DNA of 64,000 nucleotides. It comes from Pedobacter schmidteae. Its GTDB lineage: Bacteria > Bacteroidota > Bacteroidia > Sphingobacteriales > Sphingobacteriaceae. Where the stretch lies: positions 4,461,097 to 4,525,096 of the forward strand of contig NZ_LS999839.1 in assembly GCF_900564155.1 (NCBI RefSeq), read 5' to 3'. Every line of letters starts with the position of its first letter. Position 1 is the stretch's first letter. Position numbers and translations under genes: made by a program. Below are positions 3,963-33,112 of this stretch, one piece after another. Below the pieces are notes generated by a model. It did no database searches and was not told the DNA's origin. It saw only the letters and a program-made list of their open reading frames with translations.

Positions 3963-5375
3963 TTAGTGATAACCATGATTTTGAACAATATTGGGGTTTA
4001 CATTGATTTCGCCCAATGGAATGGGCATAATCCTGCGGTAATCGCCGGCCGGAATGATGCCAGTCGGATATTCTTCGGTACGCGGGATGTCCTGGTTCAA
4101 CCGGTTCAGGTCAAAATAGCGGTCGCCTTCAAAAGCCAGCTCCTTACGTCTTTCTTTTACAATATCAGCCAATAAGGCCGTACCGGAAGAGCTGTAAGTC
4201 AGCGATGGATCTCTTCGCGTCATCAATGCGTTTAAAAGTGTTAATGCATCCCCTTTGTTGGTCCGGTATGCTGCCTCTGCAGCAATCAGCTGAACCTCTG
4301 ATAAACGGATCACCTTCTTCTCATTGAAATCGCCGTTTAACACCGGATATTTGTTCACGATATAGGCTGGATCTTCGCCGCCAACCCGGTTTCTAACCCC
4401 CACAAGGATCAGGCTTTTCCGCACATCGGTAGCCGAATAGGTATCGTACAGTGATTTAGTGGTCAGCATTTCGCCGTCGCTGTTATCGGCCTGCACATAA
4501 TGCATAGACAGTTCGTCTATCCCGTTATGATTAAAGGCATCAGATACCAGCTCAAAAAGGGTTTCTACTTTGTTGCTTTCATCATGAGGGGTAGCTGCAG
4601 CCCAATAACCGGCCAGATCAGTACGACCAACCAAGGTAAAGCCGCTGTTGTTCAGTACGTCTTTGGCTTGTGTATAGGCCAGCTCGTAATCGCCTTTGTA
4701 CAAGTTTACTTTAGCTTTTAAAGCCAGGGCTGCATATTTAGAGAATCGCCCGGAGCCCTTGTATTGCGTCATCAATGTGGTGGCCTGGTCCAGATCGGAA
4801 AGGATTTGGGCATACACCTCGGCTACAGTATTTCGTCTAGGTAGAGCTGCAGGGTCGTAATGCAATACGATGGGTACTCCAGGCGAATTGGCGTCAATGG
4901 TATAAGCTTTTCCAAAAAAACGCACCAGGTCAAAATAAACCAATGCGCGGATGGCATAGGCTTCGCCTTTATATTGCATCACCTCATCTCCTTGTTTCAA
5001 AGGGGCGTCAATAATGTTGTTGGCCTGCAAAATGTTGGCATAACCGAAAGTCCACACCCGGTTGCTATAAGCGCCATCGGTAGTAATGGAGTAGGCATTT
5101 TCGCCATTAAACAAACCAATATTGATGGTAGACAGGTAAATGTTATCGGCCAGCAAGTCGCCCAGCAACGGAACCGCACCACCACGCAGTTCGCCACTGC
5201 GTAAATTGGCATAAGTACCGTTTAAGGCGGTTTTGATATCGGCAGCAGTTTTCAGGGCATCTTCGCGCGCAATGCTCGTATAAGGTTTTTGATCTAAAAA
5301 GTTCTTGGAACAGGAAGCCATGGAAAGTACTGCTGCAAGGCCTCCGGTTAGTATATAATGATTAAAATTTTTCAT
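3963..5375 (-). CDS. RagB/SusD-family outer-membrane lipoprotein
   Basis: Surface glycan- or nutrient-binding lipoprotein, 470 residues, partner of the SusC transporter encoded 13 bp upstream. It has a signal peptide ending in the lipobox MASC, then the typical SusD opening KNFLDQKPYTSI. TPR-like helices include NIIDAPLKQGDEVMQYKGEA with AIRALVYFDLVRFFG. The C-terminus carries the family end motif RIMPIPLGEINVNPNIVQN. Known SusD proteins form a lid over the SusC barrel. The ligand cannot be told: no glycoside hydrolase sits next to this pair. Confidence 0.93.
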   Translation of the reverse strand: MKNFNHYILTGGLAAVLSMASCSKNFLDQKPYTSIAREDALKTAADIKTALNGTYANLRSGELRGGAVPLLGDLLADNIYLSTINIGLFNGENAYSITTDGAYSNRVWTFGYANILQANNIIDAPLKQGDEVMQYKGEAYAIRALVYFDLVRFFGKAYTIDANSPGVPIVLHYDPAALPRRNTVAEVYAQILSDLDQATTLMTQYKGSGRFSKYAALALKAKVNLYKGDYELAYTQAKDVLNNSGFTLVGRTDLAGYWAAATPHDESNKVETLFELVSDAFNHNGIDELSMHYVQADNSDGEMLTTKSLYDTYSATDVRKSLILVGVRNRVGGEDPAYIVNKYPVLNGDFNEKKVIRLSEVQLIAAEAAYRTNKGDALTLLNALMTRRDPSLTYSSSGTALLADIVKERRKELAFEGDRYFDLNRLNQDIPRTEEYPTGIIPAGDYRRIMPIPLGEINVNPNIVQNHGYH

Positions 5376-5388
5376 GTGATGGCTTAAA

Positions 5389-8300
5389 TTAAAACTTCAG
5401 GTTAGCACCCAGGGTAAACACTTTTGGCATAGGGATATTGTAGTTGGATTGCCCGGTTAGTCCGGCTTCAGGATCGTATGGCAACTTTTTATCTCTAACC
5501 CAGGTGGCCAGGTTGGTTCCCCGTACATAAATACTCAGGCCATCAATTTTTGCTTTGGATAAAAAGGCCTTCCTGAAAGCATAGCTCAATGTCAGCTCCC
5601 GTAAACGGATGTAATCACCTTTATATAAAAAGCGGCTCGAAGCCCGGCTGGAGTTGTTGGTATTGTTAAAAATGTAAATTGGATTGTCGGTCACATCGCC
5701 CGGTTTTTGCCAGGCATTCATTTGCGAAGCAAAGTGGTTAAATGAACTGTTGTCGCCATCAGATTGAGTATAGCGCGACCATAAATCCATTACATGATTG
5801 CCAAAGTTGTAGTACAGCAATCCATCCAGGCTAAGGCCCTTATAGCTAAACGAGGAGGTAAAACTTCCAAACACCTTAGGTGTAGCGGTATAATTGGGCA
5901 CCAGCTTGGCCAGATTGTAATTGCTGGTAGTTTGGCTCATGGTTTCGTCGGTATACCAAAGTGGTTTACCATTGGCAGGATCAACACCGGCCCACTGGCG
6001 CAGGTAAAAAGTTTGAAAATCAAGGCCAACTCTTCTGATTACTGATGAACCTTTCATGTCCTTCCCATCAACCAAGGCAGTAATTTTGTTGATGTTATGG
6101 GAAATGTTAAAGCCTGCAGTCCATTTAAAATCTTCAGTTTGAACCGGTGTTCCACTCAGCGTAAATTCAACCCCACGGTTGCGCATAGAGCCGATATTAT
6201 TTAAGAAAGCACCTGAACCGGTGGTTGCAGAAGTAGGCTGGCTAAGCAATAATTTGGTTGCCGCCCTGTTGTAATAGTCGAAGGTAAAAGACAACCTGTT
6301 ATTGAATAAGCCCACATCTAAGCCCAGATCCAATTGTTTATTGGTTTCCCAAGTCAGGTAAGGGTTTCCAACTGAAGTAGGTCCGCTGCCAACCTCGCCA
6401 TCGTAGTTGAAATTGTAGTAGGATACTGCGTAATCGCTGGATGCTCCGTAGCTATACAATTGCCTCCATCCATAATCGTCAATATTGGCATTGCCCGTAA
6501 GGCCATAACTGGTCCTGACTTTCAAAAGGTTAATGAAACCAAGGGATTTGATAAAAGTCTCGTCCTGTGCGTTCCAGGAAGCACCTACAGACCAAAAATT
6601 TCCGTATCTGTTTTTTTCGCTGAAACGGGATGAGCCGTCACGACGGAAACTTCCCGAAAGGACATATTTTCCTTTGTAGGAGAAGTCGGCCAAACTGAGC
6701 AGGGAAGCAACGGTATAATCAGAATTGGCGCCCGAGGCCTCGTAAGGCTTGGTACCATTTGATGGAACGGTAACTGCCGGGTTTAAAGGCAAGCCCGTAG
6801 TAGCGGCCGTAGAAGTATAATTTTGTGATTTTTGCGCCTCGTAGCCTACTTTTATATTTCCTACCCAGGTTTGATCGCGTTTCAAGTCCAGATGGTAGTC
6901 AACCATATTGGTCCAGGTCCAATTAAAATAACGGGTATAGCCACGTGACGAGAAACCACTGTCATAAAACGTTCCAGCGCCATGTTTTGGGTTGTAATAG
7001 GTATCCTCTTCCAGGTTGTTATAATCGGTACCCAGTCGCGATGTAAAGCTCAGGTTGTCGGCAATTTTATATTCAGCCGATAAGCTACCCAACCCTTTAA
7101 ACTGGTTCATTTTATTTTTGTTGTATTTGGAGACATACAGCGGGTTCGACTTGGAACCAAAAACTGCAACATCTATGTTGTAGGTGCCATCGGCGTTATA
7201 CGGCGAAATAAAAGGGAACAGGTGTATGGCAGCATCAATGGGATTGTCGGCCGAACTACCATTTGGTGGCGAATTCTGCCCATTCGCGCCTACAATGATA
7301 CTGGTAGCCAATGAAAAGCGTTCATTCAGCTTGGTTTTTAAATTAACCTTAAATGAATAACGGCTAAAATCTGATGCGATTACAGTCCCTTGCTGGTTAA
7401 AATAGCCACCGGAAACATGATATTGCGTGTTGCTGGTACCACCGCTGATGCCCAGGTTGTACTGCTGCTGCCGGCCATCTCTTTGTACCAAATCGAGCCA
7501 ATTGGTATTGACGCCGTTTCCGGCATTAAATTTTTGATCCAGGTACTGGAACACGTTGGCTGCCGTAAGCCCATTTTGTTTGGCATAGCTGGCATTGTTT
7601 AACATACCCTGGGCAGTAATGGTACGCCATTGCTCGGTAGTCAGCAACTTACCTGCCTCTGGAGTAGTGCCCAGCTTGGTCAAGCCGTATTCGGTATCAA
7701 AAGTTACTTTTGTTTTGCCCTGAACGCCCTGCTTGGTGGTGATGATGATGACACCATTGGCCGCCCGTGATCCGTAAATGGCCGAGGCCGCGGCGTCCTT
7801 CAATACGTTGATGCTTTCTATATCATTAGGGTTGATGGCAGATAAGACATTGGAGGTAGTGGTTGACCGCGACAACTGCCCAGAGCTGACGATGATACCA
7901 TCGATAACAAACAAAGGATCGGACCCAGCCGAGATGGAGCCAATTCCGCGGATGCGGATCTGTTGCAAGGCCCCCGGTTGGCCCGATGAACCCACAGACT
8001 GCAAGCCGGCAACGCGGCCCTGTAGGGCTTGGTCGACCGAAGTATACGAACGGTTTTCCAATTCCTGTGATTTGACCAGACCTACTGCTCCGGTGCTGAT
8101 AGCCTTGGCCTGTTTGCCATAGCCGTTAATCACCACTTCGCTCAATAAACCGCCCAATGGCTTCAGGCTAATCTTCAGATCGCCCTCAACCGGCAATTGT
8201 TGTTCATATTTCTGGTAACCTATGAAGCTAAAAATAAGCACATCGGATGCGCCGGGCAAGGTAATTTGAAATTGTCCTTTGCCGTCGGTAACGCTACCTA

Positions 8301-8775
8301 TAGCTGGGTGTTGCTGCGACCTTACGTTTACACCCGGCAGGGGTAGGTTTTGATCGTCGGTTACGATACCCCGCACTACTATCGTTTCGGCAGCATTACT
8401 TTCTGCCGAAGGTTGATCTTTAGCACTGATGACTACTACATTTTTGATCACCTTATAGGTTAGCGGCAGGTTATTCAGTAATTTGGCCATTACTTCGGCA
8501 ATCTCCGCATCCTTAACGTCGATGCTGACCAGCTTTTTAAAAGGCACCACCTCATTGTTATAGGCAAAGCGGTAATTGGTTTTCTGCTCTATTTTTCTAA
8601 GCACAGTGCTCAATGCAGTTTGCTTAGATTCAATGGTGATCCGCGTTTGAGAATATAGCGCCGCCTGGGTATGAATAGTGAGCAACGCAAGTATTAAAAG
8701 TAGCTTCATTTTTAGAAAATGTTTTCGATAGCACGTGGCAAAATGGTTCTGAAAGAAAAGTTTGTTTTTCTTCAT
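5389..8775 (-). CDS. SusC/RagA-family TonB-linked outer-membrane transporter with STN domain
   Basis: TonB-dependent transporter of 1128 residues. After the signal segment (about 1-42) comes an STN/secretin-like domain (RITIESKQTALSTVLRKIEQ, about 45-115) that in related proteins contacts an anti-sigma factor. Next are a carboxypeptidase-regulatory beta-sandwich (VRGIVTDDQNLPLPGVNVRS, about 133-215), a plug (ALQGRVAGLQSVGSSGQPG with RIRGIGSISAGSDPLFVIDG) and a long beta-barrel ending in aromatic-rich FTLGANLKF. The STN domain and the FecR and ECF sigma genes directly upstream indicate substrate-induced surface signalling. A shorter signal start is possible at an internal Met near residue 23. 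Confidence 0.94.
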   Translation of the reverse strand: MKKNKLFFQNHFATCYRKHFLKMKLLLILALLTIHTQAALYSQTRITIESKQTALSTVLRKIEQKTNYRFAYNNEVVPFKKLVSIDVKDAEIAEVMAKLLNNLPLTYKVIKNVVVISAKDQPSAESNAAETIVVRGIVTDDQNLPLPGVNVRSQQHPAIGSVTDGKGQFQITLPGASDVLIFSFIGYQKYEQQLPVEGDLKISLKPLGGLLSEVVINGYGKQAKAISTGAVGLVKSQELENRSYTSVDQALQGRVAGLQSVGSSGQPGALQQIRIRGIGSISAGSDPLFVIDGIIVSSGQLSRSTTTSNVLSAINPNDIESINVLKDAAASAIYGSRAANGVIIITTKQGVQGKTKVTFDTEYGLTKLGTTPEAGKLLTTEQWRTITAQGMLNNASYAKQNGLTAANVFQYLDQKFNAGNGVNTNWLDLVQRDGRQQQYNLGISGGTSNTQYHVSGGYFNQQGTVIASDFSRYSFKVNLKTKLNERFSLATSIIVGANGQNSPPNGSSADNPIDAAIHLFPFISPYNADGTYNIDVAVFGSKSNPLYVSKYNKNKMNQFKGLGSLSAEYKIADNLSFTSRLGTDYNNLEEDTYYNPKHGAGTFYDSGFSSRGYTRYFNWTWTNMVDYHLDLKRDQTWVGNIKVGYEAQKSQNYTSTAATTGLPLNPAVTVPSNGTKPYEASGANSDYTVASLLSLADFSYKGKYVLSGSFRRDGSSRFSEKNRYGNFWSVGASWNAQDETFIKSLGFINLLKVRTSYGLTGNANIDDYGWRQLYSYGASSDYAVSYYNFNYDGEVGSGPTSVGNPYLTWETNKQLDLGLDVGLFNNRLSFTFDYYNRAATKLLLSQPTSATTGSGAFLNNIGSMRNRGVEFTLSGTPVQTEDFKWTAGFNISHNINKITALVDGKDMKGSSVIRRVGLDFQTFYLRQWAGVDPANGKPLWYTDETMSQTTSNYNLAKLVPNYTATPKVFGSFTSSFSYKGLSLDGLLYYNFGNHVMDLWSRYTQSDGDNSSFNHFASQMNAWQKPGDVTDNPIYIFNNTNNSSRASSRFLYKGDYIRLRELTLSYAFRKAFLSKAKIDGLSIYVRGTNLATWVRDKKLPYDPEAGLTGQSNYNIPMPKVFTLGANLKF

Positions 8776-8900: not shown

Positions 8901-9941
8901 TCAGTTGCTTATCATTAGTTTTTTTCCATTCAGTTTGTAGTTAAAGGGTTTAGAAATTTTCATTATATTTAGTATATCTTGTATGTTTTCTTCTTCAAAT
9001 ATGCCAGTGTAGCGGTATTGCATTACCTCCTGGTTTTTAAACTCCACCTGGATATCAAACCGTCTTTCCAGCATCTGGGCAACATCAATCATAGCACAAT
9101 TGGAAAATGCCAGCTTATTGTCCATCCAGGCGGTTTCTGCCAATGGGGTATGCCGACTCAAATGCGAAAGATTGTCGAGTTTAATTTTAGGTGTGTTTTC
9201 TGTTCCTATGCCAGGTTCCGACTGATCTTTGCGTACGGTAAGCTTCTCGTTTGGACGTAAAATAATATTTTCGGCAGGCCTGTCGTTAAAGCTCACCTCA
9301 ATCCGTCCCCTGATCAGTGAAGTTTCAATCACCTGATCACTGGGATAACTTTTTACATTGAATGCCGTACCTAGCACTTTGATGTTTATTTTATCGGTAT
9401 AGATCACAAAAGGATGCTCAGGATCTTTCTTTACATCAAAAAAGGCTTCACCATCCAACCATACTTCGCGCAATTTGCCTTTAAAATTATCGGCATATTG
9501 CAGCCGGCTATCCGAATTTACCCATACCGAAGTACCATCGGGAAGTTTGACCATAGTTGTAGACCCTTTTTTGGTCACCACCTGGCTTTTAGACAAGCTA
9601 TCGCTTGCAAAAGGAGAGAAACGCCAGATAAAAACGGCACAAATCAATAAAAAACTTATGGCTGCAAGGGCAACCAATTTAGGGCGGTTGCGGCCACCTA
9701 AATAAGTAGCAGGGGAAGGAGGCACATGCAGATGCATTTTTAAAGAATGCAAGGCAAAAGCCTGCTCGGCCTTGCTCAGCTCTTCTTCTGTCGCTTCTTC
9801 TTCAGGGGCATTAAACGACAGATATACTTTTTTCAGCTCCGGATCGGCATCAATCATTTTTTTCAATTGCTGCAAATCTTTTTCACTGGCTTCGCCCGCT
9901 AGCTGCCTGCTCAAAAGTTTAAAAAAAATATCTTCGGCCAT
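8901..9941 (-). CDS. FecR-family anti-sigma factor
   Basis: Inner-membrane sigma regulator, about 346 residues. I prefer the ATG at 9941 (MAEDIFFKLL), because the upstream extension would begin at TTG. The cytoplasmic N-terminal part (about 1-85) precedes a single membrane helix (LVALAAISFLLICAVFIW). The periplasmic FecR domain follows, with family motifs TTMVKLPDGTSVWVNSDSRL, EVWLDGEAFFDVKKDPEHPF and VLGTAFNVKSYP. A C-terminal FecR_C-type domain ends in FNYKLNGKKLMISN. It should hold the sigma factor encoded just upstream inactive until the SusC STN domain signals substrate binding. It lies 70 bp from that sigma gene, same strand. Confidence 0.92.
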   Translation of the reverse strand: MAEDIFFKLLSRQLAGEASEKDLQQLKKMIDADPELKKVYLSFNAPEEEATEEELSKAEQAFALHSLKMHLHVPPSPATYLGGRNRPKLVALAAISFLLICAVFIWRFSPFASDSLSKSQVVTKKGSTTMVKLPDGTSVWVNSDSRLQYADNFKGKLREVWLDGEAFFDVKKDPEHPFVIYTDKINIKVLGTAFNVKSYPSDQVIETSLIRGRIEVSFNDRPAENIILRPNEKLTVRKDQSEPGIGTENTPKIKLDNLSHLSRHTPLAETAWMDNKLAFSNCAMIDVAQMLERRFDIQVEFKNQEVMQYRYTGIFEEENIQDILNIMKISKPFNYKLNGKKLMISN

Positions 9942-10011
9942 GGATTTCCTGTTGTTTCCATGATAAGACAATAAAATGGGAGGGAACCACCGGTCTGCCT
10001 GAAAAAATATT

Positions 10012-10572
10012 TTAAGAATTTAAATGCTGCTGCATGTATTGGGTAATCTTTTTGAGTGCATTGCTCATGTGCCCTTCAATGGTATTGGTTGAAATACTTA
10101 AAATTTCGGATACCTGCTTATAACTGAAACCTTCATTTTTAACCAGACGGTAAACGATCTCGCATTTAGGAGGCAGCATATCGATAGCTTTTTTTAAGCT
10201 CAGCTGCAGTTCTTTTTCTATGATATAGTCTATTGGTGTAGCATTGCTGGCAGGTAGCAGTTCCAGATCATCTAAGCCAACATTGTACCGACCTTTATTT
10301 TTTTTCAAATGGTTGAAAGCCGAATTTTTAACCAGGGTAAAAAGATAAACCCTAAAATCTATCACCTGCTCCAATTTTGGGCCCATCAGCCAGATTTTCA
10401 TCATCGCATCAGCATACAATTCCTCAGCAACTTCGTCAGAATGTACTATGGCGGTAGCAAAACGGATTACAGGTGTATAAAAACATACAAATAGCTTACG
10501 GTAGGCAGCTTCATCCGCATAAACGGCTACGGCATGTTTTAGGTTGGCTATATCTGTAAGTTTGGGCACCAT
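10012..10572 (-). CDS. ECF RNA polymerase sigma-70 factor
   Basis: Extracytoplasmic-function sigma factor, 186 residues. The sigma2 region is visible as YRKLFVCFYTPVIRFATAIV with EVAEELYADAMMKIW. The sigma4 helix-turn-helix is LPPKCEIVYRLVKNEGFSYKQVSEILSISTNTIEGH. It is the standard Bacteroidota type paired with FecR, whose gene follows on the same strand. It should switch on the SusC/SusD/TlpA genes downstream. A 12-bp palindrome TTTTCCGGAAAA lies at 10629-10640 in its upstream gap; whether it is an operator is unknown. Confidence 0.92.
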   Translation of the reverse strand: MVPKLTDIANLKHAVAVYADEAAYRKLFVCFYTPVIRFATAIVHSDEVAEELYADAMMKIWLMGPKLEQVIDFRVYLFTLVKNSAFNHLKKNKGRYNVGLDDLELLPASNATPIDYIIEKELQLSLKKAIDMLPPKCEIVYRLVKNEGFSYKQVSEILSISTNTIEGHMSNALKKITQYMQQHLNS

Positions 10573-10673: not shown

Positions 10674-12551
10674 TTAATATCCCGGGTTCTGTACCATGTT
10701 CCGGTTCAACATCATTTCCATTTGAGGTATAGGCATTAGCTTTTGATACGATTGAATCCCTAAAGTTGATTCGGACAGGTTGTTGCGCTTTAAGAAAGCA
10801 AAAAACACTCCTTCATTACTCAGATCAGCTTTTAATTCTTCCTGCAGTAGCGGTAAAACATTATTCTCGCTCAATGACACAGGTAATTTTCCATTTCTTA
10901 CCCGTACCAGATTCAACAAATCAATTGCTTCATCTTTGTTGTTCAACTTCAAATTCACTTCCGAAGCAAGCAACAATACTTCCGTATATCTGGTCAAACT
11001 ACGATAATTTCCCTTTCCGTAGAACTGGTCATAGTCGCTCGGTTTTGTAATGTAACCTGAAGATTGATTATAATCAATGCCAAAAATACTTTCGTTAGCC
11101 GTGGTATGAATCAGCGTTTTGCTCGCCAAAGTATATTTGCTTGCATTAATAATCTGACTCAGGTATTTTTTAGCAGTTGCATAATCACCATTATCGGCAG
11201 CTATTCTTGCCGCAACAGACCTGGCCATATCAGCTTCTTTATCGCCCGTCGCCAGGTTTTGGATGCTTGCCTCTAAGCCAGCCAATAACGCCTCCGATAT
11301 TGTTTTTTTGTCTGTCCGGGCAGGAGGATTAGTGTCCCTATAATTCTCAGTATGCATAAATGGGGTATCTCCCCAAAAATTCATCAGCATCCAGTAACTG
11401 TAAGCATAAAATGGATAGGTTTTGTGCTTAAATGATTTAAAGGAAGATGATTTAGCAGCATTATCCATGACGGTATTTGCCCTGTTAATGGTAACGTAAA
11501 GACTGCTAAACAACGTATTGATACTGGCACTACCCGAACCAACATCATGCCTGTAAAAATCATGTTGTGGCATACCAGAGATGGTTTTACAATATAATCC
11601 TTCCAATTTGAAATAAGTTTCAGTTGCTTTTATATTTGCAGCTAACACCGCATTATAAGCTGCCAAAAATTGTGCTTCAGTGTTGAAAAAATCATCTACT
11701 ATCACCACCACTTCAGTTCCTTTCAGCTCAACCGAAAAAACTTTATCCATAGCAAAGTCGGCCAAAGTAATATTGAGCCCTTTATAACGGTTTTTCATGT
11801 TATCGGATATCGCTTTGGCATTTAAACGCTCTAACCCCTCCTTTATCGATTGTTTTAAAGCTGCATCTACCGAGCCGTCGTTTTCTATATCTGCCGAGAT
11901 GATGCTCAAGAGCTCTGTTAACCGGGCATTGTCTGATGATGAGATTTGCAATAATGCCGCAGAGATACCCAATAAAATATTAGCATTGTCATCATTCTTT
12001 GTTAATGAAACCAATTCACTGCTGGTGTTTGGCGCTGTTTTAACAAAAAAAGCAGCATAAATTTCAGTCAGTGCCTGTTTTTTGGCTTCACTAAAACTTT
12101 TCTTATCCTTCTTCATCAACGACCTTACTCTTTTCTCTTCCAGATGGCTCAGTACATTGACATTGATGGATTTGTTGTTGCTGATATCAGCAATTGCATT
12201 TAATGTGATGGGAGATCCGGAAAGACTCCCGTTAATTTCATTGAAATAATATCCGTCAACCGAAAGCTGCACATAGTTAGATGATAACTCCACGTCGGCT
12301 AAAGAAAAGCTTCCTTTATCGTCTTGTATTTCTGACTTAAAAGATCTTCCTGTTGGATTCAGTTCTGCATTGAGTTCATAAATGGTAACTACAGAGCCCC
12401 GAACAAACGGCCCCTTTTCTACTGCGCCCTGAATAGTGGTCTTTTGATGTGCACCATCAGTCGGATCATTCTTTTTGGAGCATGCCAAAATGCAAGTCAA
12501 CGCAAACAACAGGAAAAACGGTCGGATAAATGAAATGGTAGAAAACGTCAT
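10674..12551 (-). CDS. SusD-like lipoprotein with unusual N-terminal domain fusion
   Basis: A 625-residue predicted surface lipoprotein (signal peptide, lipobox ILAC, then SKKND). The C-terminal part from about residue 290 is SusD-like: a run of helices (TLFSSLYVTINRANTVMDNA, YSYWMLMNFWGDTPF), YTEVLLLASEVNLKLNNKDEA, and the family end LMPIPQMEMMLNRNMVQNPGY. The first 270 residues are not SusD. They contain GPFVRGSVVTIYELNAELNP, then a YVQLSVDGYYFNE beta segment and a helical part with INVNVLSHLEEKRVRSLM. I recall similar stretches in stand-alone lipoproteins of other bacteria, but could not check. There is no SusC of its own; it lies 101 bp upstream of the sigma/FecR/SusC/SusD genes. A role as an accessory binding protein is inference. 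Confidence 0.8.
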   Translation of the reverse strand: MTFSTISFIRPFFLLFALTCILACSKKNDPTDGAHQKTTIQGAVEKGPFVRGSVVTIYELNAELNPTGRSFKSEIQDDKGSFSLADVELSSNYVQLSVDGYYFNEINGSLSGSPITLNAIADISNNKSINVNVLSHLEEKRVRSLMKKDKKSFSEAKKQALTEIYAAFFVKTAPNTSSELVSLTKNDDNANILLGISAALLQISSSDNARLTELLSIISADIENDGSVDAALKQSIKEGLERLNAKAISDNMKNRYKGLNITLADFAMDKVFSVELKGTEVVVIVDDFFNTEAQFLAAYNAVLAANIKATETYFKLEGLYCKTISGMPQHDFYRHDVGSGSASINTLFSSLYVTINRANTVMDNAAKSSSFKSFKHKTYPFYAYSYWMLMNFWGDTPFMHTENYRDTNPPARTDKKTISEALLAGLEASIQNLATGDKEADMARSVAARIAADNGDYATAKKYLSQIINASKYTLASKTLIHTTANESIFGIDYNQSSGYITKPSDYDQFYGKGNYRSLTRYTEVLLLASEVNLKLNNKDEAIDLLNLVRVRNGKLPVSLSENNVLPLLQEELKADLSNEGVFFAFLKRNNLSESTLGIQSYQKLMPIPQMEMMLNRNMVQNPGY

Positions 12552-12588
12552 ATTTGATTTTTTTTGCGAAGATATAAAAAAAGAGAAC

Positions 12589-12644
12589 GACGAGGTTAAA
12601 AAGGGGGTGTATCAAATCTGATACACCCCCTTTTTAACCTCGTC
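12589..12644 (-). terminator. Long perfect hairpin terminator after efp
   Basis: Arms of 26 bp (12589-12614 and 12619-12644) match perfectly around a 4-nt loop and include a GGGGGTGTAT core. The repeat begins 10 bp past the efp stop. On the minus strand it is followed by CTCTTTTTTT, as expected of an intrinsic terminator. It also lies only 38 bp before the SusD-fusion start, so it insulates that gene from efp transcription. Confidence 0.85.
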
Positions 12645-12653
12645 ATTTACAGC

Positions 12654-13214
12654 CTATTTTACACGCTCAACATAATCGCCTGTACGGGTATCTACTTTAA
12701 TTTTATCTCCCTGATTCACAAACAGAGGGACTTTTAATTCGATACCATTTTCGGTAGTGGCAGTTTTTTGCGCTCCCGAAGAAGTATCACCTTTAACAGC
12801 TGGCTCGGAATAAGTAATTTCCAACTCCACAAAATTTGGTGCCTGTGCCATAATCGGCTCTTCACTTTCAAAAGAAACAATCACATCCATTCCTTCTTTC
12901 AGGAATTTTGCCGAAGTACCAAATAATGCTTTGGGAACATTAAACTGATCAAATGAAACATTGTCCATCACCACAAAATAATCGCCTTCTTCGTATAAAT
13001 ATTGATAGTCATTAGTCTCTACACGGCAAATCTCTACCGCTTCATCGGTTCCCAAACGGGCCTCTACAATTTTTCCGGTTTTGATGTTTCTAAATTTGCC
13101 CAGATAAAAAGCGCCACCTTTGCCGGGGGTGCGGTGTAAAATTTCGGTAACGGTTACCAGTTCACTATTAAAGCGTAATATATTTCCTACTTTAATTTCA
13201 GATGCCTTTGCCAT
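12654..13214 (-). CDS. efp: Translation elongation factor P
   Basis: EF-P binds the ribosome between the P and E sites and relieves stalling at polyproline stretches. The 186-residue product has the three expected beta-barrel domains: KOW-like N-domain (KVGNILRFNSELVTVTEILH), OB domain (VMDNVSFDQFNVPKALFG) and C-terminal OB domain (IELKVPLFVNQGDKIKVDTRTGDYVERVK). The tip loop RTPGKGGAF carries the lysine (K32 here) that is post-translationally modified in many bacteria. No modification gene (epmA/earP/ymfI type) is seen nearby. It is transcribed divergently from the HipA-like gene and closed by a very long hairpin terminator. Confidence 0.97.
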   Translation of the reverse strand: MAKASEIKVGNILRFNSELVTVTEILHRTPGKGGAFYLGKFRNIKTGKIVEARLGTDEAVEICRVETNDYQYLYEEGDYFVVMDNVSFDQFNVPKALFGTSAKFLKEGMDVIVSFESEEPIMAQAPNFVELEITYSEPAVKGDTSSGAQKTATTENGIELKVPLFVNQGDKIKVDTRTGDYVERVK

Positions 13215-13323: not shown

Positions 13324-14121
13324 ATGAATAACAGCGAACTGGCATTAAGGTCAGTTAAGGTAACCAGATATGTAACTCCCTTGAGGGAAGGTGGGTCGAT
13401 GCCTGCGATAGCGGAAGCCGACGATGGCTTTTTATATGTACTTAAATTTAGAGGCGCAGGACAAGGCACAAAGGCTTTGATAGCAGAAATAATAGGTGGC
13501 GAAATTGCTCGGGCATTGGGTTTTAAAGTGCCAGAAATTGTGTTTGCTTCCTTAGATGAGGCTTTTGGACGGATAGAACCTGATGAGGAAATACAGGATT
13601 TGCTAAGGGCAAGTGAAGGCTTAAACCTGGCTTTGCACTACCTTTCGGGAGCCATTACCTTTGATCCGGTGGTCACTACCATCGATGCCAGACTGGCTTC
13701 ACAGATTGTTTGGCTGGATTGCTTGCTGACCAATATGGACCGCACCGCCAGAAATACCAATATGCTGATCTGGCATAAAGAACTGTGGTTGATAGACCAT
13801 GGTGCATCTTTATATTTTCACCACTCCTGGCAAAACTGGAAGGAGCAGGCGCTGCGCCCTTTTGCATTGATTAAGGATCATGTTTTGCTGCCCTGGGCTA
13901 CTGAACTGGAACAGGTGGACCGGGAATTTACCAGCATACTGACCCCAGAACTGATTGCAGCGGTGACAAACCTAATCCCGGCAGAGTGGTTGACTGATGA
14001 ATCCTCATTTGACCATGCAGAGGAGCACAGGCAAGCTTATATTCACTTTTTAGAAACCAGAGTGGCCAATTCGGCGATTTTTGTAAAAGCAGCACAAGAT
14101 GCAAAAGCAGCACTTATTTGA
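13324..14121 (+). CDS. HipA-like kinase-fold protein
   Basis: A 265-residue HipA-family protein much shorter than classic HipA toxins (about 430). It has an N-terminal lobe (RYVTPLREGGSMPAIAEADD, FLYVLKFRGAGQGTKALIAE) and a kinase-like core with TNMDRTARNTNML, where D139 and N144 fit the HipA catalytic Asp and metal-binding Asn. LIDHGASL supplies D158 as the second metal ligand. HipA kinases phosphorylate proteins such as aminoacyl-tRNA synthetases; this subfamily's target is unknown. It overlaps the following DUF3037 gene by 23 bp, a pairing I recall as widespread. No HipB-type DNA-binding antitoxin is adjacent. The kinase fold is fairly sure; toxin activity is only possible. Confidence 0.8.
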   Translation: MNNSELALRSVKVTRYVTPLREGGSMPAIAEADDGFLYVLKFRGAGQGTKALIAEIIGGEIARALGFKVPEIVFASLDEAFGRIEPDEEIQDLLRASEGLNLALHYLSGAITFDPVVTTIDARLASQIVWLDCLLTNMDRTARNTNMLIWHKELWLIDHGASLYFHHSWQNWKEQALRPFALIKDHVLLPWATELEQVDREFTSILTPELIAAVTNLIPAEWLTDESSFDHAEEHRQAYIHFLETRVANSAIFVKAAQDAKAALI

Positions 14122-17779: not shown

Positions 17780-18409
17780 ATGAAAGATCAGCAGAACAAT
17801 GGCTTATCCAACGAGGACCTCAATCTATTCAAATCTGTACGGGAGCGTGACAAGAAGGCATTTGAACTGTTTTATAAGCAGTATTACAAACAACTGTTTG
17901 CACTGGCTTATCGTTATGTTGGGCAAATGGAAGTTGCAGAAGAGCTGGTTCATGATTTATTTATAACCGTTTGGAACAAATCAGATCAACTAAATATTCA
18001 ACATTCGATTAAAAGTTATCTGTTTAAAGCCATTGTAAATTCGTCGCTGAATTATATAAAAAAAGAAAAAATGCAAACAGAAAAGCACTTAGCCTATCTG
18101 GCTGTCCAGGATCCTGAACCCGTTTCAGAAGAAAACAAAGGTATGGCCGATGAAAAAATGCTAAAAAGCCTGGAAGAGGCGCTGGAACTGTTGCCTGCCA
18201 AATGTAAACAGGTGATGTACCTGAGCCGTTTTGGAAAGCTGAAACAGCAGGAAATTGCCTTGCAAATGGATATTTCATTGAAAACGGTTAAAAATCATCT
18301 CACCTATGGTTTCCAAAAACTACGGGAGCATCTGGCCAGTAAACAAGAACTGATCACACTGCTGCTTATCTTTTTTAAAATCACCTTATTTAATACCGCT
18401 CTGTTATGA
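17780..18409 (+). CDS. ECF RNA polymerase sigma-70 factor with hydrophobic C-terminal tail
   Basis: Sigma factor of 209 residues. The sigma2 region is FELFYKQYYKQLFALAYRYV with EVAEELVHDLFITVWNK. The sigma4 region is LPAKCKQVMYLSRFGKLKQQEIALQMDISLKTVKNHL. After the DNA-binding part there is an extra hydrophobic tail (LITLLLIFFKITLFNTALL), which the other two sigma factors in this window lack. Its stop codon overlaps the FecR start (ATGA), indicating coupled translation with its anti-sigma factor. It should control the receptor operon downstream. The tail may touch the membrane; that is inference. Confidence 0.92.
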   Translation: MKDQQNNGLSNEDLNLFKSVRERDKKAFELFYKQYYKQLFALAYRYVGQMEVAEELVHDLFITVWNKSDQLNIQHSIKSYLFKAIVNSSLNYIKKEKMQTEKHLAYLAVQDPEPVSEENKGMADEKMLKSLEEALELLPAKCKQVMYLSRFGKLKQQEIALQMDISLKTVKNHLTYGFQKLREHLASKQELITLLLIFFKITLFNTALL

Positions 18410-19398
18410 AAAAATTTGAAACAAATGAGGAAATGATTTACGGACTGATTATAGATGATCTGGACGGAATCATATCGGCAAACGATAAAGCTACGCTGGA
18501 AAACTGGCGTAACACTTCAGCTGCCAATGAACAGGTATATCAGGAATTCCTGAATGTACACCTCAATATGAATAAATTGTTTGAACGTGGTGGCTATGAC
18601 ACACAATCTTCCTGGGAAGTGCTGGACAAAAAAATCAGTACTGCCCCTCTTGCCGAATCTGCAGATGCTAAGCGGGGCAGGGCCACAAAATTGTGGTACG
18701 GAATTGCGGCATCCATATTGATTGTTTTATCGGCAGGATACTATTTCACTTATAGCAATAAGTACGAGGAAATCAGCACAGGAAACAAGGGTACTTATAT
18801 TATATTACCCGATAGCACACGCGTTGACCTGAATTCGGCTACGACTATCAGATACCGCAAACAAACCTTTTTGAAAAACAGAAAGCTGGAACTGCTGAAC
18901 GGTGAAGTATTCATCAATGTAATAAATCATAAGCTACCTCAATTTAAGCTGGTTATAGGTGAGCTTGAAGCCCTGGACATTGGCACAAGCTTTAATGTGA
19001 TCAAAACCGACAACTCTGTTCATGTGATTGTAGAGAATGGAGAAATTGCCTTAAAAGAACCTTCAGCTGATAAACAAGTGATGCTAACCCCCGGTAAACT
19101 GGGCACCTATGATGTAGGTACCAAAGCCCTTTTGGCGGTGGATAACTTAAACCCCAATTACAAGTCCTGGCTAAATAAAGAATTTATTTTTAATGAAGTT
19201 CCACTAAAAGATGTGGCCAGTCAATTGTCAAAAGTGTACCAGGAACCTATCCTTGTAAAAGGCAACAGTTTAAAATACAGAAAATTAACTGCAAGACTAC
19301 ATTATCAAACTTTGGATAGCGTAATTGCCGTTATTTCTGCATCTTTACAATGTAAAGCAACTAAATCTAAGGCTACTTATATCTTATCTGAAGATTGA
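18406..19398 (+). CDS. FecR-family anti-sigma factor
   Basis: A 330-residue membrane anti-sigma factor. It has a cytoplasmic N-terminal region (about 1-95), a single membrane helix (LWYGIAASILIVLSAGYYF), and a periplasmic FecR domain with TYIILPDSTRVDLNSATTIRY, LELLNGEVFINVINHKLPQF and ALDIGTSFNVIK. A C-terminal domain matches the region that binds the receptor STN domain. It overlaps the sigma gene by 4 bp and is followed after 26 bp by the cognate TonB receptor. It transmits ligand binding at the outer membrane to the sigma factor. Confidence 0.92.
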   Translation: MKKFETNEEMIYGLIIDDLDGIISANDKATLENWRNTSAANEQVYQEFLNVHLNMNKLFERGGYDTQSSWEVLDKKISTAPLAESADAKRGRATKLWYGIAASILIVLSAGYYFTYSNKYEEISTGNKGTYIILPDSTRVDLNSATTIRYRKQTFLKNRKLELLNGEVFINVINHKLPQFKLVIGELEALDIGTSFNVIKTDNSVHVIVENGEIALKEPSADKQVMLTPGKLGTYDVGTKALLAVDNLNPNYKSWLNKEFIFNEVPLKDVASQLSKVYQEPILVKGNSLKYRKLTARLHYQTLDSVIAVISASLQCKATKSKATYILSED

Positions 19399-19424
19399 CA
19401 GGCTGCTTTTCAATTTAGCAGACA

Positions 19425-21968
19425 ATGAGATTTTTCAGAGCAATTGGGTTTTTACTTTTTTTATCGTGTTTAGTTAGCAACCTGCAAGCGCAGGTTGGAA
19501 ATATTCTGGAGCATAAAATCACCGTTAATTTACCTGCCGACTCGTTAATTAAAACGATTCGCAGACTGGAATTAAAGACACGAAATAGCTTTGCTTTCGA
19601 TCCCGACCAACTGCGGCCGGTTCATGTGACGGCGCATAGGTTTGTTCAGACTCCCTTATCGATAGTATTGGAAAAGCTACTGACAGGCACTGCCTTAAGT
19701 TACAAACTGGTGGGCAATGACATAGTCATCATTCCTAAGAAAATAAGTAACTGGACCATAAGAGGGCATGTCAGGGACAAATCGAATGGGGAAGAACTAA
19801 TTGGAGCAACTTTTTACATTCCCGCTATCGACGCCGGGGTAACCACCAATCAATATGGCTTTTATGCGATATCTGTCCCGGAAGGCACTTATCAGGTAAT
19901 GGTTTCCGGCTACGGCTACCAAACCAGCACCCAAACGATTTATCTGAACAGCGATAAGGAACAGGAAATAGAATTATCCCTTAAAACACGACAGCTGAAA
20001 GAGGTAGAAATTAAACAATCTGTTTTGACACCAAATCCGATATTGATGAATGAACAGAATTTTACTGTTAAACAGCTGAGTCGCACTCCTTACTATGCCG
20101 GAGAAACAGATGTGGTAAAGAAGCTGCAAATGGAAAATGGCATCAAAGCACTATCAGAAGGAAGCTCAGGTTTGTTTGTAAGAGGGGGGAATACCGATCA
20201 AAACCTCGTTTTATTGGATGAGGCGGTGGTGTATAACCCATCCCATCTGTATGGATTGATTTCTGTTTTTAATCCTGATGCGGTAAACAATATACAGATA
20301 TACCGTGATTATATCCCTGCAAATTTTGGTGGCCGGCTGTCTTCGGTAATTGTAAACAGAATGACGGAAGGTAACAGCAAAGCCTATCATCTCACAGGTG
20401 GAATCAATTTCATGTCGGCGCGCTTAGCTGCAGAGGGGCCGATTGTAAAAGAAAAGGGCTCTTTTATTGTAGCTTTCAGACGAAGCCTGTTAGATGTATT
20501 CCATAATAGATTCAAGTTATTCAACCCTAAATCAGTCTATTACGATATAAATGCTAAAGCAAACCTAAAAGTAGATAAAAACAACAGTTTATTTTATTCC
20601 ATCTACCTTGGCAAGGACAAATTGTTATCAGAAAATAGCTATACCAATAACTGGGGCAATTTAACTTCTACTTTGCGATGGAACCATATTTTTAATTCCC
20701 GCGTATTTTTGAATGTTTCGGCGGTGTACAGTGATTATAGTAATTTGCTGGACCTGAACGCCGATACACTTTCTAAAAAAAACCAATGGAATACCGGAGT
20801 CAAGGACCTGACCCTGAAAACCGATTATACCTATTACAGGAGTCCCACCAATCAAATTAAATTTGGGATTTCGGGAACCTATCACAGGTTTACACCTGGT
20901 GAGAGTAGCAGGTTGCAATCTGCTGATTTTAATATCCCCCGCGACCGTTCATTGGAATCGGCCATATATTTTGCGCAGCAGCTGACCTTAAACAAAGTGT
21001 TTGAATTGAACTACGGGTTAAGGCTTGGTGTTTTTGTAAATGCACAACAAAAGAAGAATGTATTTGACCCGCAGGGTTATCCGGTAAACGTGGAAGATGT
21101 GAAAACCTTTGTGAACCCCGAACCAAGGATTAACATCAGCTACCTGCCTGGTGTTACCCAACGTATTTTTGCTACCTATAACCGCAACTATCAATACCTG
21201 CAGTTGTTGCAAAACAGTACACTAGCTTTTTCTTCACTTGAACCCTGGATTCCGGCTTCGGCAACAATAAAACCTCAGCGTGCCGACTACTTTTCATTAG
21301 GGTATATGAATATGCCTTCGGATTATATCTTTTCTGTCAATGCTTACTATAAGAAACTGAGCAATCAGCTGGAATTAACAGGACATGCCCAGATCATTAG
21401 AAATCCTGACATCAGAACTCAACTAAGAACCGGGAAATCTGATGCATACGGCTTTGAAACGCAAATCACCAAAACGGAGGGCAAGTTTACCGGATCAATA
21501 GCCTACAGTTATTCAAAAGTTTTCCGCAAAATTGATGGGCTGAACTCGGGCAATAGGTTTGTGGCCAATTATGACATCCCACACGAATTAAAGCTCAGTG
21601 CCAGGTACGAGTTTAATAACCAATTCTCCGTTCAATCCTTCTTTATTTATTCTACCGGCAGGCCACTTACCCTGCCAATAGGTTATTATCAGCACGACGG
21701 CTTAAACGTACCAATATATGAGGACAGGAATACCTCCAGATTTCCGGACCTCAGTAGATTGGATATTTCTGCTCAATACCGTTTTCAGGCTAAAATAGCC
21801 AAAAACCGCTTCCTGTCAAATGTAGTCTCCGTGGGCATATATAATTTATATAATCAGAAAAATCCGCTATATTACCACCTTAATCCAAATACAACGGGTT
21901 CGGCCAGAGCAAGTATAGAATATGGTTTTGGCATTTATCCATGGATAGCCTATAGTTTTAAAATTTAA
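19425..21968 (+). CDS. TonB-dependent receptor with STN and carboxypeptidase-like domains
   Basis: Outer-membrane receptor of 847 residues. It has a signal peptide (ending NLQAQ) and an STN domain (ITVNLPADSLIKTIRRLEL). A carboxypeptidase-regulatory-like domain follows (IRGHVRDKSNGEELIGATFY), then a plug with GLFVRGGNTDQNLVLLDEAV and the conserved VYNPSHLYGLISVFNPDAV. The barrel ends in IYPWIAYSFKI. It is shorter than SusC types and is followed by a DUF4249 lipoprotein rather than SusD, a pattern I know for a distinct class of Bacteroidota receptors. The ligand is unknown; the STN domain plus sigma/FecR genes indicate self-induction. Confidence 0.93.
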   Translation: MRFFRAIGFLLFLSCLVSNLQAQVGNILEHKITVNLPADSLIKTIRRLELKTRNSFAFDPDQLRPVHVTAHRFVQTPLSIVLEKLLTGTALSYKLVGNDIVIIPKKISNWTIRGHVRDKSNGEELIGATFYIPAIDAGVTTNQYGFYAISVPEGTYQVMVSGYGYQTSTQTIYLNSDKEQEIELSLKTRQLKEVEIKQSVLTPNPILMNEQNFTVKQLSRTPYYAGETDVVKKLQMENGIKALSEGSSGLFVRGGNTDQNLVLLDEAVVYNPSHLYGLISVFNPDAVNNIQIYRDYIPANFGGRLSSVIVNRMTEGNSKAYHLTGGINFMSARLAAEGPIVKEKGSFIVAFRRSLLDVFHNRFKLFNPKSVYYDINAKANLKVDKNNSLFYSIYLGKDKLLSENSYTNNWGNLTSTLRWNHIFNSRVFLNVSAVYSDYSNLLDLNADTLSKKNQWNTGVKDLTLKTDYTYYRSPTNQIKFGISGTYHRFTPGESSRLQSADFNIPRDRSLESAIYFAQQLTLNKVFELNYGLRLGVFVNAQQKKNVFDPQGYPVNVEDVKTFVNPEPRINISYLPGVTQRIFATYNRNYQYLQLLQNSTLAFSSLEPWIPASATIKPQRADYFSLGYMNMPSDYIFSVNAYYKKLSNQLELTGHAQIIRNPDIRTQLRTGKSDAYGFETQITKTEGKFTGSIAYSYSKVFRKIDGLNSGNRFVANYDIPHELKLSARYEFNNQFSVQSFFIYSTGRPLTLPIGYYQHDGLNVPIYEDRNTSRFPDLSRLDISAQYRFQAKIAKNRFLSNVVSVGIYNLYNQKNPLYYHLNPNTTGSARASIEYGFGIYPWIAYSFKI

Positions 21969-31247: not shown

Positions 31248-31802
31248 ATGGATAATAAACTCGTGCATCATCTGTTATGGGAGCGTTTGCGGATTGGAGA
31301 TCAGGATGCTTTTTTTGATCTCTACAAAGCTCTCTATTACGATCTTGTTAATTTTGGCATACGTGTATGCGGCGATACAGAAACAGCTGGTGAAGCGGCT
31401 GATCAGGTATTTATAACCGTCTGGGAGAAACACGAACAACTAACCCGGGTTGATAATGTCCCTGCCTATTTGCGGACCTTTTTAAAAAGAAAGATTTTAA
31501 GACTGTTGGAGCGGAAACGTAAAATTAACGATGCCCTTGCCAACGCCGGTGCCGAAGGAGAATGGATGGAAATGTCGTATGAGGAGTTTATTGTCAAAGT
31601 ACAAACAGACGAAATGGTACGCTATAAACTGAAAAGCGCATTACAAAAATTAACCTACAGACAGAAACAATTGATTCACCTGAAATTTTTTGATGGGCTT
31701 AGCTATGAACAAATTGCAGAGCAAAGTGAGCAGACCATTAAAACAGCTTACAACACCATTTACGACGCACTTAAAATTTTAAGAAAAGAACTGCGCGACT
31801 AA
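31248..31802 (+). CDS. ECF RNA polymerase sigma-70 factor
   Basis: A 184-residue sigma factor starting MDNKLVHHLLWERLRIGDQDAF. The sigma2 region is FFDLYKALYYDLVNFGIRVC with TAGEAADQVFITVWEK. The sigma4 helix-turn-helix is LTYRQKQLIHLKFFDGLSYEQIAEQSEQTIKTAYNTI. It is the first gene of the third sigma/FecR/TonB set in the window, followed after 126 bp by FecR. The gap to FecR holds an unusual pair of alternative hairpins. Confidence 0.92.
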   Translation: MDNKLVHHLLWERLRIGDQDAFFDLYKALYYDLVNFGIRVCGDTETAGEAADQVFITVWEKHEQLTRVDNVPAYLRTFLKRKILRLLERKRKINDALANAGAEGEWMEMSYEEFIVKVQTDEMVRYKLKSALQKLTYRQKQLIHLKFFDGLSYEQIAEQSEQTIKTAYNTIYDALKILRKELRD

Positions 31803-31852
31803 AATCAGTTTTTATAATCTTCATTTCCCTTCTTTTAACACACAATTTGTGG

Positions 31853-31898
31853 CCTAAGAAAAAAAACTTTTTTTTTTCTTAGGAAAAAAAAAAGTTTT
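31853..31898 (+). promoter_or_regulatory. Mutually exclusive A/T hairpins between sigma and fecR
   Basis: Hairpin 1 pairs 31853-31866 with 31870-31883 (CCTAAG plus eight A). Hairpin 2 pairs 31863-31877 with 31884-31898 (AAAAC plus ten T, loop CTTAGG). Both are perfect (14 and 15 bp) and share the central T-tract, so only one can form at a time. It lies 30 bp before the FecR start, so it could tune read-through or translation. Confidence 0.5.
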
Positions 31899-31928
31899 AG
31901 GGCACTGGTATTATAAAAGCCAAATATT

Positions 31929-32996
31929 ATGATAGATCGTAGTCTTTTCAATATTGAAGACTTTCTTGTAGACAATACCTTCCAACTCTACTGTGCCGGC
32001 AAGGACAAACTCTGTGTTACCTATTGGGAAAATTACATTAAGGCTCATCCGGAGCAAGCCCAAACGATAAGTGAAGCCAAACGTTTGTATGGGATATTAA
32101 GTGGTCATAAAAAGCCATTAAACAGCCAGATCGAGCGTATGAAAAATGAACTTCAGACAGAGCAGGGACACCTTACAATTCCAATAAAGCGACAGTATAC
32201 CTGGTTAAAAATTGCAGCTGTATTTTTGGTGTTTTTGGGTATAGCGGTGTTGTACAAAAACCAGACTACACCTCCTAAACCTGTAAATGACTTCATAACC
32301 AGCTATAGCACCGTTGCAGCAGAACGCAAAAAAGTGAAGTTACCTGACGGGACAGTGATACTATTGAATTCAAAAAGTTCCTTGAAGGTAAATAGGGATT
32401 TTAACATCAGCAACAGGGAAGTTACTTTAATAGGTGAGGCTTTTTTTGATGTAACCCATGACAAAAACAAGCCTTTTAAGGTGCTCACCCCCGATTTCGA
32501 TATTAAAGTATTAGGTACAACATTTAACGTAAAGGCCTATCCGGATGAACCTACGTCGGAAGCTGTATTGATAAAAGGGGTTATTGTAATGGAAGCCAGT
32601 GGTGGCAAGGGCAATTCCATTACCTTAAAACCAAGCCAGAAGGTTACCTTTTACAAAAAGGTACCTGAGTTGCGCAATTTAAAACCTCAAAATCCCATCA
32701 TAAAACATCCGGAAATTACGATTAATAGTTATACCAAAAAAAATGACAGCACTATTGTTGAAATGGCATGGATTCAAAACCGCCTGGAGATTCAGGACCT
32801 GAGTTTTGCGGAGCTGAAACATACGCTGGAAAGATGGTACAATGTAGAAATCGTGTTTGCCGATAAAGAAATTGAAAAATACCATTTTACCGCCACATTT
32901 AAAGGTGAGACATTAGTAGAAGTATTATACGCACTTCAATGTGCAGAACATTTTAAATATGAAATAAAAGGAAATCAAGTGATCATATCAAAATAA
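31929..32996 (+). CDS. FecR-family anti-sigma factor
   Basis: A 355-residue membrane anti-sigma factor. It has a cytoplasmic N-region (about 1-85), a membrane helix (WLKIAAVFLVFLGIAVLY), and a FecR domain with KKVKLPDGTVILLNSKSSLKV, EVTLIGEAFFDVTHDKNKPF and IKVLGTTFNVKAYPDEPTS. The C-terminal domain is YNVEIVFADKEIEKYHFTATF. It partners the sigma factor upstream and should sense the SusC STN domain encoded downstream. A hairpin at 33003-33030 separates it from the SusC gene. Confidence 0.92.
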   Translation: MIDRSLFNIEDFLVDNTFQLYCAGKDKLCVTYWENYIKAHPEQAQTISEAKRLYGILSGHKKPLNSQIERMKNELQTEQGHLTIPIKRQYTWLKIAAVFLVFLGIAVLYKNQTTPPKPVNDFITSYSTVAAERKKVKLPDGTVILLNSKSSLKVNRDFNISNREVTLIGEAFFDVTHDKNKPFKVLTPDFDIKVLGTTFNVKAYPDEPTSEAVLIKGVIVMEASGGKGNSITLKPSQKVTFYKKVPELRNLKPQNPIIKHPEITINSYTKKNDSTIVEMAWIQNRLEIQDLSFAELKHTLERWYNVEIVFADKEIEKYHFTATFKGETLVEVLYALQCAEHFKYEIKGNQVIISK

Positions 32997-33002
32997 TAAA
33001 AG

Positions 33003-33030: not shown

Positions 33031-33112
33031 TAAATTTTTTGATATCAAGCATTGGCAGTTTATGCGCAAACAGATCTCTGCCAAATACTAAAGCAACCAA
33101 AAAAACAAAAAT

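Follow-up and report, generated by a model that had tools for sequence, protein, structure and literature searches.

A compact SusD module fused to a non-SusD lipoprotein domain, with no SusC of its own, in Pedobacter schmidteae

Introduction

SusD is known in the textbooks as the lid of the transporter SusC and as a glycan binder. What could a SusD do when it forms the C-terminal part of a larger lipoprotein, when the lipid anchor sits on another domain, and when no SusC of its own accompanies it? This question is raised by a gene of Pedobacter schmidteae (NCBI RefSeq assembly GCF_900564155.1), located at 10674-12551 on the minus strand of a 64,000-nucleotide stretch of contig NZ_LS999839.1 (positions 4,461,097 to 4,525,096; hereafter the window). 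The gene encodes a lipoprotein of 625 amino acids (aa), in which an N-terminal domain unrelated to SusD (the N-domain) is joined to a shortened SusD. We put at roughly 0.5 the probability that the protein presents a recognition module, free of SusC and released from the transporter, on a stalk that resembles a domain of PgcA, with a protein being the likelier partner than a glycan.

Results

The 625-aa protein has two parts

The gene is a single open reading frame (ORF) of 625 codons with an ATG start. Its Cys24 lies in a lipobox-like sequence and is invariant across six aligned fusions. The Pfam family PF14322 was found at residues 297-421 (1.7e-8; 35.4 bits against a cut-off of 27) and PF07980 over a best stretch of 493-589 (6.5e-13; 49.4 bits against a cut-off of 23.1), while residues 1-290 gave nothing over the curated Pfam and NCBIfam cut-offs, with the whole protein or with the N-domain alone. 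The AlphaFold model of the whole protein (mean predicted local distance difference test score, pLDDT, of 77.5) consists of a beta-sandwich (residues 36-132), helices (133-257), a weak linker near residues 279-287 and a SusD scaffold from residue 292. Residues 285-625 were matched to many SusDs by VIA-align, the best being 3jq1 (Z of 29.3; 320 of the 462 residues of 3jq1 aligned); 6gcz matched the SusD part with a Z of 27.5. The SusD motif residues E580, G581 and R589 (EG..F..L.R) are retained, and P607, P609, Q621, N622, G624 and Y625 coincide with near-invariant residues of canonical SusDs (the PIP...QNPGY end). Residues ~285-625 have both the fold and the Pfam profiles of the SusD/RagB family, and the two-part architecture of a non-SusD lipoprotein domain followed by SusD is near certain. 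An initial annotation, made from the DNA alone, had held the first 270 residues to be unlike SusD in pattern and the last 330 to carry helices and the end motif of SusD. Both statements stand, as Pfam and VIA match SusD only in the C-terminal part; the border between the two domains moves from residue 270 to nearer residues 280-290.

The SusD module lacks the tryptophan-bearing segment

We compared 22 compact SusD modules, gathered by their likeness to the 625-aa protein and so not drawn at random from the SusC-free SusDs. They comprise 11 N-domain fusions, two intracellular proteins and nine proteins of a fasciclin group (described below); a diverged fusion from Phocaeicola was added only for the reading of gene context and for both trees. 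From the E of the ESIF strand to the R of the last tetratricopeptide repeat (TPR), the compact modules measure 26-33 residues (22 of 22; 33 in the 625-aa protein), compared to 73-154 residues in 28 canonical SusDs. All 22 skip approximately positions 275-340 of the 458 in the canonical profile, with ends that vary (271-314 in locus L125), and their matches to this profile start only at positions 26-89. The canonical near-invariants D317 and R319 fall into gaps in 21 of the 22 modules and K342 in all 22, the 625-aa protein lacking all three; R409 and D422 are replaced throughout, and R425, P451, P453, Q465 and Y469 are kept in every module. In 6gcz, a GWGNWG sequence stands 13 residues after ESILE, inside the lost segment; in the stored chain its tryptophans occupy positions 284 and 287. 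The excerpted text of PMC9599597 gives W287 and W290 of this protein as substrate-binding, and their spacing leads us to equate them with that pair. By these alignments, the compact modules are devoid of the segment that bears glycan-binding tryptophans in a solved SusD.

The SusDs of the same genome served as a control. A SusC-like ORF lies within 145 bp of each of 21 intact SusDs, in which the segment measures 55-281 residues. The 21 come from 20 hand-picked regions, many selected for odd or short matches, out of 136 PF07980 matches, after one gene cut by an edge and the two halves of one split gene had been removed from 24 rows. Ten of the 21 lengths, including the shortest (55-72), are rough with the anchor R unaligned; the other 11 are 73-281. 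The split gene (L165, 5833-7225, minus strand) is divided between two ORFs and adjoins an intact SusC.

In a SusD tree rooted on the canonical rows, 23 compact modules formed one group (98/98). The fasciclin group was a clade within it (100/98), and the N-domain fusions together with the intracellular pair made up another group (94/94, short of the mark of the tool). The intracellular pair (98/88) nested inside this latter group, beside the fusions of L065, L119 and L121 (99/98).

The fusion is conserved and stands apart from SusC in other genomes

The full-length fusion was found in 11 of 399 genomes of the family, the own genome included. One copy (G767) is split over two contigs; it enters the genome counts and stands outside the 22 modules and the context loci. 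Three to six candidates were scored per genome in the family and class searches, and the counts are thus lower bounds. The ortholog in Pedobacter sp. ok626 is 74% identical to the 625-aa protein. A far diverged fusion (24% identity) occurs in Phocaeicola massiliensis (OY726056.1), where it scored 85.8 bits against the N-domain profile and 70.8 and 18.5 bits against the canonical SusD profile. The class search with a SusD-module profile recovered the own genome only (1 of 350, E of 1e-28), with a profile and a limit that probably miss diverged copies such as that of Phocaeicola. Between the window and ok626, the ratio of nonsynonymous to synonymous substitution rates (dN/dS) is 0.084 over the whole gene; taken separately, the N-domain has 0.038 and the SusD module 0.115, with dS near saturation; at the level of codons, the fusion is under purifying selection. 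An assembly error is ruled out by the presence of the fusion in ok626, in the family genomes and in Phocaeicola, together with the low dN/dS, and the same facts speak against decay. In one relative (L120, genome G731) the ORF used has no in-frame lipobox, its 5' end being perhaps damaged or its start misread. The Phocaeicola copy (L177, 6971-8947, plus strand) is flanked by alaS and a helicase-type gene; its record is labelled as a plasmid and bears housekeeping genes.

SusC stands directly beside the fusion at none of 11 other loci (ok626, Parapedobacter, L064, L065, L066, L119-L123 and Phocaeicola), as sought by BLASTP against one or two SusCs of the window only; the contig of L122 ends ~0.5 kb from the fusion gene on one side. 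In the window the fusion gene is followed by genes for a sigma factor of the extracytoplasmic function (ECF) type, FecR, SusC, SusD and a TlpA-like protein. As the initial annotation had it, the order of the genes on one strand gives this locus two SusD-type proteins and one SusC. That SusC is already paired with a SusD of the set. The relatives' loci likewise bear out its proposal of a new architecture without a SusC of its own. The link that it drew to the sigma/FecR/SusC/SusD set did not survive. The orthologous set of ok626, with TlpA (76-86% identical), has no fusion gene ahead of it; the ok626 fusion is located elsewhere, between MFS and GNAT genes. An ECF sigma gene was beside the fusion at none of the 10 other loci tested, Phocaeicola being outside this test.

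The N-domain resembles a domain of PgcA and is modular

When folded alone, the N-domain reached a pLDDT of 91.6. Among known structures, it is matched best by the non-heme domain of PgcA, a cytochrome from Geobacter (9i0d; Z of 11.9, root-mean-square deviation of 4.1, 164 residues, 13% identity), followed by 9i0e at a Z of 9.8, with the next row at only 5.1. The alignments to 9i0d and 9i0e span model residues 1-207, the beta-sandwich and then helices. Since Foldseek returned nothing at an E of 0.001 or better, this likeness is a resemblance in fold and not a demonstrated homology. Pfam and NCBIfam models stayed below cut-off in 16 of 16 N-domain members, the few isolated hits each involving no more than one or two of them, and a sequence search of the PDB with the N-domain profile matched no chain. 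SusDs were missing from the VIA matches of the N-domain, an absence that proves nothing.

Counting the own genome, the N-domain was found in six of 395 genomes of the class and eight of 301 of the family, one of the latter (G651) by a weak partial match. It was also found at 15 loci of a collection of genome contigs, including Fibrobacter and a Chlorobiota bin. Where the N-domain is not followed by SusD, an occurrence that the initial annotation had anticipated, the proteins have short beta-type tails, repeat regions or a coiled coil ahead of the domain. By eye, these repeats resemble those of the InlB/BspA and FISUMP types. The joining of the N-domain to other C-terminal parts indicates that the domain is modular and that the 625-aa protein is a true fusion. 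Two Fibrobacter loci (L061 and L063) each encode two N-domain proteins, followed by what we presume, by eye, to be FISUMP-like repeats.

A tree of 34 N-domains, from which duplicate gene copies had been removed beforehand, separates 12 fusions from 22 other N-domain proteins by one branch (91/85). This branch fits a single fusion event, without proving it. The 22 include L039, which the end of its contig cuts before the C-terminal part, and two long rows of the tree (L066 and Phocaeicola) join each other in a placement that is unsure.

The compact module recurs in other proteins

The compact module also ends eight lipoproteins with fasciclin domains (L126 and L128-L134) and one without (L127). 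No SusC-type ORF lies beside any gene of this fasciclin group; a SusC-like ORF is 6 kb away from L127, a weak hit to SusC next to L132 turned out to be a redoxin, and the long ORF beside L126 encodes a TRCF-type helicase. Two further proteins that carry the module have no signal peptide. P0002 (L124, 7651-9255, plus strand; 534 aa) consists of a complete DUF4062 domain (PF13271, 8.2e-30, residues 6-88) followed by the compact SusD. Its DUF4062 domain shares 45-50% identity with the four plasmid matches at the head of the list, and among the matches listed the plasmid proteins cover at most a third of P0002, none reaching 80%. Residue E84, a candidate for the catalytic Glu, is within a conserved LEYxYA stretch (LEYEYA) and aligns with the E of two other DUF4062 proteins. 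The gene is 0.3 kb from an IetA-like fragment. P0003 (L125, 5127-8375, minus strand; 1082 aa) joins a P-loop NTPase (KAP/AAA) to the compact SusD, with two hydrophobic segments and a nuclease-like stretch discerned by eye and with weak HEPN-like matches. Its gene lies 4 kb from one that encodes a Shedu C-terminal domain, a sub-threshold Apea-HEPN gene being in between. P0002 and P0003 look like virus-defense proteins, and each has defense-type genes nearby. PADLOC gave no match to P0002, a weak match to P0003 and no match to the whole 625-aa protein.

A search of six and five further genomes of relatives (of G582 and G486, respectively) found neither intracellular fusion a second time. Viral contigs scanned with the compact module and with the Phocaeicola protein gave no confirmed relative, and phages scanned with P0003 gave no match. 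In the literature, we found no paper that pairs SusD with DUF4062; among the matches listed, none mentioned SusD together with fasciclin and nothing was pertinent to SusD with STAND NTPases, sensors or anti-phage systems. In the excerpted text of PMC8375218, SusD is not demonstrated as a phage receptor.

The gene and its surroundings

The coordinates of the features are collected in Table 1. The hairpin between efp and the fusion gene folds at -50.6 kcal/mol, which none of 200 shuffles equaled, and is absent from the list of a simple terminator scan. It is the probable terminator of efp, and the fusion gene therefore probably has its own promoter. A link between the fusion and efp was rejected, as the gene occurs in none of 24 other efp neighborhoods (flanks of ~1.5 kb or less). 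The 101 bp that separate the fusion gene from the sigma gene yielded no terminator, and co-transcription with the sigma set is conceivable, in the P. schmidteae genome only. The SusC of the set carries an STN domain, a trait of signaling transporters. A scan of nine neighboring window proteins, with a small ORF at 2466-2822 outside it, revealed no carbohydrate-active enzyme family. A SusC/SusD (SusCD) set is present near the fusion gene, yet no polysaccharide utilization locus (PUL) with carbohydrate-active enzymes was seen among these neighbors. Elsewhere in the window, BLAST identified two further sigma/FecR/TonB-receptor sets (17780-21968 and 31248-36457, both plus strand), and a HipA-like kinase (13324-14121, plus strand; PF20613, 1.3e-18) adjoins efp on the opposite strand.

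Table 1. Features of the fusion gene and its neighbors in the window, and of fusion loci with a divergent GDP-mannose dehydratase gene (gmd) in relatives
Feature	Position	Strand	Basis or remark
Whole gene, 625-aa lipoprotein (N-domain and compact SusD)	10674..12551	minus	ORF call, Pfam, structure model
Signal peptide and lipobox, residues 1-24 (...CILAC)	12480..12551	minus	simple scan and by eye
N-domain, residues 38-275: beta-sandwich (~36-132), then helices (133-257)	11727..12440	minus	structure model
Compact SusD module, residues 286-625	10677..11696	minus	Pfam, VIA, 22-module comparison
Shared deletion site, residues 488-520 (33 residues)	10992..11090	minus	comparison with canonical SusDs; 6gcz alignment
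Kept SusD end motif, residues 605-625, LMPIPQMEMMLNRNMVQNPGY	10677..10739	minus	near-invariant residue match
Perfect 26-bp hairpin and T-tract, between efp and fusion gene	12574..12644	minus	sequence, fold energy
efp	12654-13214		upstream of fusion gene
Sigma gene (ECF)	10012-10572	minus	same strand, downstream of fusion gene
FecR	8901-9971	minus	
SusC of the set	5389-8775	minus	
SusD of the set	3963-5375	minus	
Region of fusion gene and divergent gmd, L065	4919-10699		
Region of fusion gene and divergent gmd, L119	8480-14287		
Region of fusion gene and divergent gmd, L121	3971-10198		

Discussion

We favor a reading in which the 625-aa protein is a lipoprotein of the outer-membrane surface, presumably exposed, that is lipid-anchored by its N-domain. 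This domain, a PgcA-like beta-sandwich with a helical bundle, would serve as a stalk for exchangeable C-terminal payloads. The payload here would be a SusD module that has departed from the SusC transporter, retaining the TPR scaffold and the SusD end motif and having lost both the segment of the glycan-tryptophan loop and the N-terminal anchor of SusD. Because of these two losses, the module has probably ceased to be the lid of a transporter; its likeliest role is that of a free-standing recognition domain. Recognition of a protein is favored because the same scaffold is reused in proteins without a signal peptide, where the capture of glycans makes little sense.

Several observations weigh against this reading. 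A SusC/SusD pair lies 2.5 kb from the fusion in L121, a SusC-like piece is 7 kb off in L123 and a TonB-receptor set is 4 kb off in ok626; in the window itself the fusion gene precedes a SusCD set on the same strand, and a SusC could conceivably act in trans. The gmd gene is divergent from the fusion in L065, L119 and L121, with a Poly_export/SLBB gene beyond it, and such neighbors would be in keeping with a function that involves glycans. TPR folds have many kinds of ligand, and the SusD scaffold could bind a glycan by other surfaces. The match to PgcA is one of fold alone and says nothing on function. The fusions of DUF4062 and of the NTPase to SusD are known from one case each.

The glycan-related neighbors bring up the possibility that the protein is an accessory surface glycan-binding protein (SGBP), a stalked SusD that captures a glycan and passes it to some SusCD pair, such as that of the neighboring set. 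It is a lipoprotein with the SusD fold, it adjoins a SusCD set in the window, and three relatives have it by gmd and polysaccharide export genes. Against this stand the reduction of the tryptophan segment to 26-33 residues in all 22 modules, the ok626 ortholog of the SusCD set with its fusion gene elsewhere, and the lack of a carbohydrate-active enzyme family among the nine window proteins scanned. The initial annotation had offered an accessory surface binder or a new architecture as alternatives; the latter holds, and the former is possible but, with the tryptophan segment missing, rather doubtful. The same gmd and export genes might speak for an adhesin, or for attachment of exopolysaccharide or an S-layer, in which stalk and SusD would hold another surface macromolecule of the same cell. 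The repeats borne by the N-domain elsewhere, which by eye we take to resemble surface or adhesive modules, would agree with such a role. The other fusion loci examined have different neighbors, and we consider this explanation unlikely.

A sensor or partner of the adjoining signaling transporter, co-regulated with the sigma/FecR/SusC/SusD set, would account for the position of the gene, which shares the strand of the sigma gene and precedes it by 101 bp with no terminator found between, and for the STN domain of SusC. This is very improbable given that set and fusion are apart in ok626 and that no ECF sigma gene adjoins the fusion at the other loci tested. A functionless, decaying SusD relic joined by chance to a lipoprotein, as might be surmised from the disappearance of a large segment and several canonical residues, the patchy presence (11 of 399 family genomes) and the missing lipobox of L120, can be practically dismissed in light of an overall dN/dS of 0.084, the 12 fusions that range from Sphingobacteriaceae to Phocaeicola on one side of a branch, the strongly kept core motif and the reuse of the module in other proteins.

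The preferred reading of a SusC-free recognition module has an extension of a far more speculative nature. The compact SusD might be an exchangeable recognition module both at the surface and inside the cell, with the intracellular copies as the sensors of immune effectors, namely "integrated decoys": surface modules that were copied into defense proteins and there trap the phage proteins that bind them. The idea comes from the nesting of the intracellular copies among those of surface lipoproteins in the tree, and we regard it as improbable. Were they indeed defense sensors, they would be a bacterial instance of an immune receptor that incorporates a decoy of a surface protein.

At least four unrelated N-terminal parts, of which two have no signal peptide, precede SusD modules with neither a neighboring transporter nor the glycan loop. 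What the SusD scaffold binds when it is not the lid over a sugar is a question that can be tested with small soluble domains. A segment of less than ~40 residues is suggested as a short sequence rule by which annotation could separate such SusDs from those of transporters. The N-domain, a putative stalk that is not yet catalogued, has members in Bacteroidota, Fibrobacterota and a Chlorobiota bin.

Among known systems, the SGBPs of the SGBP-A/B and SusE/F type are lipoproteins as well, and SGBP-A itself has the SusD fold (7kv1-7kv4 were among the matches). SGBPs are members of PULs beside SusCD, whereas the gene of the 625-aa protein is not tied to a PUL and its product lacks the tryptophan loop. 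The non-heme domain of PgcA shares the order of beta-sandwich and helices and precedes the working heme domains. According to the excerpted text of PMC11520253, cleavage at the C-terminus of this domain in recombinant PgcA leaves a triheme form, which fits a stalk that bears a payload. PgcA differs in having hemes as payload in place of SusD, in its organism and in the lack of a sequence match. In Swarozyc, DUF4062 is described as a TIR-like NADase, and KpSwz requires an auxiliary domain and the active-site residue E97, with a phage portal protein as the trigger (excerpted text of PMC13174449). The relative P0002 has the full DUF4062 domain followed by the compact SusD; in the same excerpt, the auxiliary domain of KpSwz is a winged-helix binder of the portal and not SusD, and the 625-aa protein itself is without DUF4062. 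The fasciclin-SusD lipoproteins (L126, L128-L134) have the same compact module and the same deletion, with no SusC-type ORF found next to the gene, and differ in their N-terminal part and in forming a separate SusD clade (100/98). With the SusD/RagB proteins (3jq1, 6gcz), the 625-aa protein has in common the fold, the TPR scaffold and the C-terminal PIP...QNPGY motif. It departs from them in having no SusC partner of its own, in the deletion of the glycan-loop segment and in a lipid anchor that is ~260 residues away, on another domain. By fold and profile the 625-aa protein belongs to the SusD family; in partner, anchor and loop it seems unlike the lid of a SusCD transporter.

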